A stretch of 64,000 bases of DNA from Salvelinus alpinus (Eukaryota; Chordata; Actinopteri; Salmoniformes; Salmonidae): NCBI RefSeq assembly GCF_045679555.1, contig NC_092087.1, forward strand, positions 80,817,585 through 80,881,584, in the 5' to 3' direction. The stretch's first letter is position 1. Every line of letters starts with the position of its first letter. Under the pieces are notes generated by a model that was not told the origin of the DNA, searched no databases, and saw only the letters and a program-made list of their open reading frames with translations. The translations under genes and the position numbers were made by a program. Positions 46,852 to 64,000 of the stretch are shown piece by piece.

Positions 46852-46910
46852 CATCTTTTGATACCTCTGTGTCTCAGTCTGTGGTTCTTGATTGGAGTCA
46901 GTGATAAAGT

Positions 46911-47032
46911 ACACACACACACACACACACACACACACACACACACACACACACACACACACACACACACACACACACACACACACACACACACACACAC
47001 ACACACACACACACACACACACACACACACAC
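46911..47032. repeat. (AC)n microsatellite, 122 bp
   Basis: An uninterrupted AC array, flanked by TG arrays at 46714-46851 and 47137-47249. Confidence 0.98.
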
Positions 47033-47136
47033 TCCTTCACTCACACAGCCCCAGGCATGGTCAACCTCATTAGCCAGCTCCACTCTGGTGAGTTCCACGC
47101 TCCAATCACCCACAGTCAAGCTTCCGCAGCCCAGAC

Positions 47137-59500: not shown

Positions 59501-62500
59501 AGAATTCGAGGATCGGACCATGATAACTGACGGTCCAGTGTTATACCTAGGAGTTTAGCTTCCTCAACGTGACCATGATAACTGACCGTCCAGTGTTATA
59601 CCTAGGAGTTTAGCTTCCTCAACGTGATCATGATAACTGACTGTCTGGTGTTATACCTAGGAGTTTAGCTTCCTCAACGTGATCATGATAACTGACTGTC
59701 TGGTGTTATACTTAGGAGTTTAGCTTCCTCAACGTGATCATGATAACTGACTGTCTGGTGTTATACCTCGGAGTTTAGCTTCCTCAACGTGACCATGATA
59801 ACTGACCGTCCAGTGTTATACCTAGGAGTTTAGCTTCCTCAACGTGATCATGATAACTGACTGTCTGGTGTTATACCTAGGAGTTTAGCTTCCTCAACGT
59901 GATCATGATAACTGACTGTCTGGTGTTATACCTAGGAGTTTAGCTTCCTCAACGTGATCATGATAACTGACTGTCTGGTGTTATACCCAGGAGTTTAGCT
60001 TCCTCAACGTGATCATAATAACTGACTGTCTGGTGTTATACCTAGGAGTTTAGCTTCCTCAACGTGATCATGATAACTGACTGTCCATTGTTATACCTAG
60101 GAGTTTAACTTCCTCAACGTGACCATGATAACTGACCGTCCAGTGATATACCTAGGAGTTTAGCTTCCTCAACGTGATCATGATAACTGACCGTCCAGTG
60201 TTATACCTAGGAGTTTAACTTCCTCAACGTGACCATGATAACTGACCGTCCAGTGTTATACCTAGGAGTTTAACTTCCTCAACGTGACCATGATAACTGA
60301 CCGTCCAGTGTTATACCTAGGAGTTTAACTTCCTCAACGTGACCATGATAACTGACCGTCCAGTGTTATACCTAGGAGTTTAACTTCCTCAACGTGATCA
60401 TGATAACTGACCGTCCAGTGTTATACCTAGGAGTTTAGCTCCCTCAACTTGACCATGATAACTGACTGTCTGGTGTTATACCTAGGAGTTTAGCTTCCTC
60501 AACGTGACCATGATAACTGACCGTCCAGTGTTATACCTAGGAGTTTAACTTCCTCAACGTGACCATGATAACTGACCGTCCAGTGTTATACCTAGGAGTT
60601 TAACTTCCTCAATGTGATCATGATAACTGACCGTCCAGTGTTATACCTAGGAGTTTAGCTCCCTCAACTTGACCATGATAACTGACTGTCTGGTGTTATA
60701 CCTAGGAGTTTAGCTTCCTCAACGTGACCATGATAACTGACCGTCCAGTGTTATACCTAGGAGTTTAACTTCCTCAACTTGCTCAGTGGCCACACCCTTT
60801 ATACACGACTCCAGTTGAGGTTTAGGTCTTAGAGAATGTTTTGAACCAAATACAGTGTATTTAGGACCAGTTTATTATTAATCTCCCATTCTGATACTGA
60901 GGCTTTTTCCATTGTGTTTTATGTCATTTGGTATTGTATTTTATTTCTTCTTTTTGTTAAGGTCAAAAGAAATCTCAATTGACAGTATGTCAACCAATCT
61001 GCTGAGCAGCCTGTCTTGTTTGTCGCCTACTTTGCATCATTTCTGGAGCGATAGAAAGGACCAAAGGGGTAGACTGGGTCCACATGGAAGAGTTGATGTG
61101 TTTTCTGGTTTGATTTACACATAAATTATTTCTCGATTACACATTTTGATAATACACAGGTAGTTTGCAGCCAAAGATAGGATTGGTCAATCTATAAATG
61201 TGATAACTTCCCTGAGTTTTTAAACTTTGAGGGACAGTTTTCTAAACACAGATTAAGCCTAAATAAAAAACACTTTTAATAGAGTGTATTTCAATGCTTT
61301 TTAGTCAACGACTATAGGCTTAATCTGGGTCTGGGAAACTATCCCTGTCCTGAGCGTCAAAGTTTTTCCTTCAAAAAAAGCTCACATTGGCTATTGCTAA
61401 TTCGGTTTTACAAAAGGTTGCTTTGCCCTTTCTCTCTGTACTAAAGCAGAACGATCAGTTATGTAAAGTCATAATTAGTCTTAGTCCTGAGCTGCATGGA
61501 AAGTGTTAGATCCGGAACCGCGATGTATTAGTGGAACCAGATTTTCTGCACAGCAAATCACACAAATCTTTTGGAGGAAAAGAAAAATGAAGAGCTGTTC
61601 CGCTGAGCACAGAGGTGAAGCTCTGGGAAAGTTAAGCTCCACTTTATTCTTGAATAATCACGTCAACTATTCTTTCTGTGACCCCAAATCCAATACTGGT
61701 TAGCGGTATAACACCCGTCCCCCTGAATATCTAAATATTTGGAGGAACTGTTCCTCGCTTTACCGTTCCGGTCAGGTTTGAATATATCTCCAATGTCATT
61801 GTGAATATTGGGAGAGGGATTCTATCAGTTCGTGATCAGTTGAATCCATTCCATCAGTTCTGGTCATTTCATACTGGAAGGGGTCTCAGCATGTTGTCTG
61901 TATCAGTCCAGTTGAATCCATTCCATCAGTTCTGGTCAGTTCATACTGGAAGGGGTCTCAGCATGTTGTCTGTATCAGTCCAGTTGAATCCATTCCATCA
62001 GTTCTGGTCAGTTCATACTGGAAGGGCTCTCAGCATGTTGTCTGTATCAGTCCAGTTGAATCCATTCCATCAGTTCTGGTCAGTTCATACTGGAAGGGGT
62101 CTCAGCATGTTGTCTGTATCAGTCCAGTTGAATCCATTCCATCAGTTCTGGTCAGTTCATACTGGAAGGGCTCTCAGCATGTTGTCTGTATCAGTCCAGT
62201 TGATTCCAAACGTTATCCAAACGTTACATCATCACCCTATCACAAGCCCGTGATTAAAACCGTACGATCACATGACCTGCGTCGGATTCCTGAGCTTGGG
62301 ATTGGCTAATCCGTTTAAGGCTAATTGTTCCCACTCTCCTCCACATTAAGCTGTCAGCTTACAAATAGAATGACCCACCTATCACAGAACACCATGTCAT
62401 CAGCAGTCTGCCTACCCACCCTCACCTTTCTAATGCCACTATTAGTGTCTAGGTCAGACTACTATCAGCTGCTTATACACTTAAAATGGAGTGTCTGTGT

Positions 62501-64000
62501 GTCTGTGTGTGTGTGTGTGTGTGTGCCTGTGTGTGTGTGTGTGTGTGCCTGTGTGTGTGTGTGTGTGTGTGTGTGTGTGTGTGTGTGTGTGTGTGTGTGT
62601 GTGTGTGTGTGTGTGTGTGTGTGTGTGTGTGTGTGTGTGTGTGTGTGTGTGTGTGTGTGTGTGTGTGGCGTGCGTGCGTGCGTGCGCGTGCGCGCGTGCG
62701 CGCGTGTGTGTCTAACCTTCTTCACTCATAACGCCCCGAGGCTCCTTAGTCGTGAAATCAATTCCATTCCACACACCCTGACCTCCAACACCTTAAGGGA
62801 GTTTTCATACATGATCTCTATCCTCACACACGCACACACAGACAGACACACACAAAAACACTTTTCGCTATTCTCTCCCTCCCGTAGATAAATTGAGGTG
62901 TGTGTGCGTGCGTACGCGCACCTTTGATGGTGATGTGTGGACTAGCGTAGTGGAGGCTTACAGTGGGATTTTTTGTAGAAGTCTACAGTCACAAGATCTT
63001 ATGAATAGTTAATAGGCAATAGAAGTCAGCCCAGAGAGCTGGGGGAGAAAATGTTGGTACCTCCCATTGGTACCTCTCTCCTCTTTCCCTCATATCTCTC
63101 TCATTCTCTCCCCTCCTCTCACCTTCCTTACTATTTCACTGTCCTCACCTTCTCTGTGTGTCTCTATACTGCTGTGTGGCTATCAGAATGTGTCAGCCTT
63201 TTTTGCGTGTACATTTTTGCACGCCCACACAGGGGGAATATGGTGGAAAACTAAGACAGAACTTAGCCAGATTGACAGTTACTTAGCTGAGCCTGTGAAG
63301 GCTGGCTGACGTTACAGGAGAGAGGCCTGTCTGGTGGCTGTCAACTGCAGCGCTGCAGCAGAGGATTGAATCAGTTGAGGGGGAACGCCTCAAAGCCTGT
63401 ACACAGCGTCTGGAGTGGAGTTATCATACCAAACACACGATAGAGCAATCAAATAGAACGTTGTAATACACCATCTATCACTATTAACTAAACAGTCAGG
63501 TACAGTATTGTCCCTCTCCTCTCCTGTTTTGCTCCCCGTCACAGCTGTTTCATTGTTAAAGGGGATGTTGTTTCATTTAACACCCAAACTGTAGAACTAA
63601 ATGATCGAGCACTGAGCTGCATCTCTTCTGTTTCTCTTTCTCTCTCTATCAGCTTTGATGTCAGCTGGATGCTGTACCACCAACTGTAGAAATGTCAAAA
63701 TATGGGACAGGTAAGAATCATTCAATAGGACACATTTTAACTTTTTTGTAATTTAGCAGATGCTTTAATCCAGAGCGATTTACAGTAGTGAGTACATACA
63801 TTTTCATACTTTTTCCCCCTGTACTGGTCCCCCCGTGGGAATCGAACCCACAACCCTGGCTTTGCAAGTGCCATGCTCTACCAACTTTGCTCCCGAGTGG
63901 CGCAGCGGTCTAAGGCACTGCATCTCAGTGCAAGAGGCGTCACTACAGTCCCTGGTTCGAATCCAGGCTGTATCACATCCGGCCATGATTGGGAGTCCCA
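56501..64000. repeat. Large duplicated segment, copy 2 (same as 46872-54374)
   Basis: Contents in order, each a duplicate: (AC)n 56539-56657; (TG)n 56762-56874; GA tract 57205-57555; SINE 57890-58010; LINE remnant 58200-59505; 55-bp minisatellite 59530-60785; MITE 61231-61350; 72-bp minisatellite 61820-62210; TG/CG array 62495-62711; 58-bp exon-like block 63653-63710; SINE 63751-63876; SINE 63888-64000 (cut by the window end). Differences seen: the first AC array is 4 bp shorter and one G is inserted at the end of the TG array (GTGTGGCGTGCG). Confidence 0.95.
63888..64000 (+). mobile_element. tRNA-derived SINE, copy 3, truncated by the window edge
   Basis: The same sequence as 54262-54374, inside the large duplicate. 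Confidence 0.85.

Follow-up and report, generated by a model that had tools for sequence, protein, structure and literature searches.

A probable false tandem duplication across a 100-N gap in a Salvelinus alpinus assembly

When a sequence is found twice, almost letter for letter, on the two sides of an assembly gap, the question arises whether the chromosome carries it twice or whether only the assembly does. This question is raised by a stretch of 64,000 nucleotides (hereafter the window; G000:C2:80817585-80881584) in an assembly of 2.37 Gb and 928 contigs. If the window is compared with itself by BLASTN, the longest match joins 46872-54374 to 56501-64000 over 7,504 columns, with no mismatches and five gap columns in two gaps, a degree of agreement that is far beyond chance. 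The elements concerned are the following.

46872-54374, plus strand: first copy, the part that aligns to the sequence after the gap (self-BLASTN and global alignment)
54375-56400, plus strand: remainder of the end of the first contig, of which a second copy is predicted at 64001 to about 66026
56401-56500 (G000:C2:80873985-80874084), no strand: assembly gap of 100 N between the copies, the only N run of the window
56501-64000, plus strand: second copy, from the first base after the gap to the end of the window (self-BLASTN and global alignment)

A sequence-only reading of this DNA had described a restart, at 56501, of the sequence of 46872, followed to the end of the window with nothing but microsatellite length changes and one inserted base. 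Global alignment of the two copies bears this out: there is not a single substitution in 7,499 aligned positions, and the copies fall into identical blocks of 39, 6,127 and 1,333 bases. The offset of +9625/+9626 given in that reading applies to the two later blocks, while the first 39 bases are displaced by +9629. Only two indels separate the copies, both in or at dinucleotide tracts.

46911-47032, plus strand: (AC)61 in copy 1, against (AC)59 in copy 2 (56540-56657); four bases fewer in copy 2, the sole difference in repeat units
62667, plus strand: one additional G that only copy 2 has, out of phase and bordering a GT tract (global alignment)
49891-51153, with its second copy at 59516-60778: minisatellite of 55 bp in 23 copies

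The extra G looks like a consensus error. Everything else is shared, including the kinds of sequence that change most readily. Nine of the ten simple-sequence tracts of at least 15 bases have the same length in both copies, as have two of the three dinucleotide tracts longer than 100 bases, and the 55-bp minisatellite is equal letter for letter. Outside tandem arrays, 4,949 of the 7,503 aligned bases of copy 1 show no difference from copy 2.

The homology of copy 2 starts at 56501, directly at the gap edge (0 bp), in both BLASTN and the global alignment. The junction between the copies is itself the 100-N gap and is therefore not shown by the assembly. The gap had been placed inside a CT satellite, which is correct for its left flank, where the first contig ends in such a repeat; the right flank consists of the sequence of 46872.

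55621-56399, plus strand: CT-rich simple repeat at the end of the first contig (TRF, period 2, 394.5 copies, 68% matches)

For a wider comparison, a region of 324 kb was used, made up of the window, 20 kb upstream and 240 kb downstream, with 12,700 bases of N. These lie in five runs (window coordinates): 100 at 56401, 2,500 at 64001, 100 at 147217, 5,000 at 189817 and 5,000 at 199817. On both strands of this region, the 39 bases that open copy 2 are present only at 46872 and 56501. Furthermore, three probes (60000-61500, 47930-49880 and 53090-54374) were searched against the whole assembly, in a search that scores the 40 best candidates, skips simple repeats and is blind to stretches of N. Each probe gave two full-length matches of 100%, both inside the window, the other matches being partial. 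For the stretch 51420-51875, the matches listed include none beyond the two copies. Further copies elsewhere, on unplaced contigs or an alternate haplotig, were considered and set aside, as among the 40 best candidates the three probes gave only the two adjacent full-length copies.

Because the repeat adjoins the gap, begins with the first base after it, shows no substitution and has no further full-length copy for three probes, the arrangement is best read as a false tandem duplication in which two overlapping contigs of the same haplotype were set end to end and left unmerged, with a probability that we put at roughly 0.84. The first contig would end at 56400 in the CT-rich simple repeat, and the second would start at 56501 with sequence already contained in the first from 46872 on. 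Their overlap would amount to about 9.5 kb, of which 7.5 kb is seen and the remainder presumed. The contigs would have stayed unmerged, and the scaffolder would have placed them side by side with a spacer of 100 N. In the simplest reading, the two small indels would be consensus differences between two assemblies of the same molecules; contig 2 would extend past the end of contig 1, and the reads would be common to both copies. One point tells against this overlap: a real mutation or an allelic difference would also show up as (AC)61 against (AC)59. The sequence-only reading had offered overlapping contigs or haplotypes placed end to end as the simplest account, and the adjacency of the gap, the 0 substitutions and the lack of a further full-length copy for the three probes support it. 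That the duplication is false in one of these two forms seems highly probable, the overlapping contigs being the preferred form.

If the first contig's end recurs beyond the window, its counterpart should follow copy 2. The predicted end of that counterpart, about 66026, falls within the run of 2,500 N (64001-66500), which starts directly at the end of the window. Megablast of 66501-78500 against 54375-56400 gave no long match, a result that is compatible with an overlap and not decisive. Among the matches listed by a more sensitive run of the same comparison, there were only ones of 25-44 bases, apparently of simple repeat.

False duplications, the homotype kind included, are reportedly described by Rhie et al. 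2021, and the heterotype kind reportedly by Ko et al. 2022. According to the relevant passages of PMC8081667, there are two kinds of false duplication. The homotype one is frequent at contig boundaries, where overlapping ends, in many cases about as long as a corrected read, are scaffolded in tandem on either side of a gap. The present case is alike in its tandem copies, in the gap between them, in the start at a contig boundary and in the absence of substitutions, and probably also in size, which would fall in the range of corrected long reads. In a comparison of sequence layout with this description, no differing feature is seen. The layout also has an older name, duplicated overlapping contigs or DOC, in the part of PMC2864568 (Kelley and Salzberg 2010) that deals with alignments within 10 bp of contig ends. 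There, too, adjacent contigs have aligning ends; here, the alignment begins with the first base of contig 2 (distance 0 bp), and the other end is presumed to match. In contrast, that portion of the source explains the layout by haplotype differences and tests it with mate pairs, whereas here there are no substitutions. The event is thus most likely an ordinary, already published kind of assembly artefact and not biology.

The second form of false duplication, a heterotype (haplotypic) one, would consist of two parental alleles assembled as separate contigs and scaffolded in tandem, each copy representing one allele. It would produce the same layout of copies separated by a gap, and the (AC)61/(AC)59 difference is allele-like. 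In the excerpted text of PMC9516828, false duplication is recognised by a gap that separates the copies, by abnormal depth and by linked reads that are discordant, and the homotype kind is called if depth is below the haploid level or if heterozygous k-mers are not found. The gap is common to the heterotype cases of that text and to this one, but the variants that could be haplotype-specific here come down to 0 substitutions in 7,499 positions and two indels at dinucleotide tracts, that is, one (AC)2 length difference and one G. If two haplotypes differed at 2.8 sites per kb, about 21 such sites would be expected, and the probability of finding none is about 8e-10; at 0.5 sites per kb this probability is still 0.02. 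For orientation, a section of PMC9291852 gives a heterozygosity of 2.78-2.9 per kb in one diploid lake trout, and passages of PMC8488904 and PMC9291852 mention several salmonid references that were built from doubled haploids. Since no substitution occurs in 7,499 positions, an overlap within the same haplotype is better supported than two haplotypes. A haplotype pair is accordingly disfavoured, and we hold it to be distinctly improbable; it would be conceivable in a homozygous tract.

The other rival reading is that the DNA itself is duplicated: a tandem segmental duplication of about 9.6 kb, of very recent date, would have lost its junction in the gap owing to the CT repeat. The sequence-only reading had expected unique sites to differ between the copies of a real duplication. 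This holds for an older duplication only; a very young one need not differ at such sites, and identity alone is therefore insufficient against it. Indeed, at an assumed rate of 1e-8 per site, 0 substitutions taken by themselves permit up to about 20,000 generations. The simple-sequence tracts narrow this interval: with at most one change in three long dinucleotide tracts, assumed rates of 1e-3 to 5e-4 would put the upper limit of the age at about 800 to 1,600 generations, and an assumed rate of 1e-4 would put it at about 7,900. These bounds depend on the rate chosen, and the range of 1e-6 to 1e-2 printed in the part of PMC8186053 concerned has a low end that gives no useful tract-based bound.

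The ends of the repeat also bear on a real duplication. Its break would have to coincide by chance with the gap. There is no notable direct repeat shared by its two ends; the junction proper, however, would be hidden in the gap. The kilobase to the left of copy 1 has no megablast match at E<=1 to the kilobase to the left of the gap, and the more sensitive blastn finds only two inverted matches of 19 bp (E 0.43). Recombination between flanking repeats was considered as the origin of a duplication and rejected, there being no shared repeat beyond these two inverted matches.

Tandem duplication without a gap does seem to occur in the neighbourhood, which lends the idea of a real event some credit.

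31572-34978: gapless head-to-tail tandem pair, unit about 1.7 kb, 99.8% identical over 1,704 bp, with three mismatches and no indel

This pair is perhaps a real young tandem duplication; its unit starts, as judged by eye, in a short minisatellite. However, its three substitutions in 1,704 positions contrast with 0 in 7,499 across the gap (Fisher p = 0.006). Taken together, a real duplication across the gap appears distinctly improbable. In that improbable case it would be so recent that most simple-sequence tracts still match, and it would possibly still be polymorphic in the species.

The pair across the gap also stands apart from other repeats of the region. Pairs in the 324 kb were listed if they were direct or inverted, at least 500 bp long and at least 97% identical, with starts at least 200 bp apart. 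No listed pair is longer than this one, and no other has 0 substitutions; it exceeds by a factor of 4.4 the next listed pair outside short-period arrays, the one of 1,704 bp with three mismatches. Then follow, again outside such arrays, a dispersed pair (1,612 columns, 36 mismatches) and one with copies 8.3 kb apart (1,420 bp, one mismatch). The latter consists of direct repeats at 83216-84635 and 91476-92895 (window coordinates, outside the window), perhaps the termini of a young LTR element.

The second 100-N gap of the region, at 147217-147316 (window coordinates, outside the window), interrupts a tandem array (about 56 bp), which continues on both sides. The match between its two flanks reaches the gap on either side and covers 843 columns at 96.9%, with 23 mismatches. 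Because the array would give such a match anyway, this gap neither supports nor refutes a systematic fault. In the 324 kb, a clear case is thus seen at one 100-N gap out of two, which is too few to speak of a systematic fault.

Besides satellites, the block contains dispersed repeats and a repeat fragment that resembles a tRNA. The SINE-like sequence and the plentiful dinucleotide repeats, together with the size of the genome, suggest a salmonid. Through double counting, repeat and satellite statistics for this stretch would be too high. Furthermore, reads would map ambiguously to the two copies, and the pair might be reported, wrongly, as a segmental duplication. As the error is of a known type, its use is mainly that of a cleaning flag for the assembly. 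With respect to genes, a Pfam scan of nine of the 65 open frames of at least 60 codons gave no match that attains a curated cut-off. These nine frames give no sign of a spurious gene gain, and exons may lie in the other 56 or in shorter frames. Weak matches below the cut-off in three of the nine frames are taken as chance (THAP, 13.9 bits against 23.9; PRIMA1, 13.4 against 38.6); likewise, the frame in a 72-bp repeat matches five unrelated families below the cut-off, the best being DndE (17.8 against 25).

Rfam reports tRNA matches on the minus strand at 54209-54265 (33.1 bits) and 63835-63891, while ARAGORN calls no tRNA at either position. The adjoining sequence, 54255-54374, is dispersed on many contigs at 94-98% identity, and the stretch that holds the tRNA match itself has three relatives, at 72-90%, among the matches listed. 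A tRNA gene at 54209-54265 was rejected on account of the silence of ARAGORN and the dispersed adjoining sequence, and the match is regarded as part of a repeat. The segments 54209-54374 and 63835-64000 are probably each made up of two tRNA-derived repeat pieces side by side. Another dispersed repeat occupies 49561-49879 and, in the second copy, 59186-59504; most of its listed matches elsewhere run at 94-97% over the last 190 bases, on many contigs.

On the minus strand, the edge of the 55-bp minisatellite at 49891-51153 continues into an open frame. This frame seems to resemble the final part of a LINE reverse transcriptase; Pfam gave nothing for it. An array related to this minisatellite is found at G000:C11:24902202-24905765, with seven matches at 69-74% identity, and is perhaps the homeologous locus. 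The window also contains, at 3009-5890, a minisatellite of about 2.9 kb with a unit of roughly 46 bp, of which shifted copies are about 96% alike.
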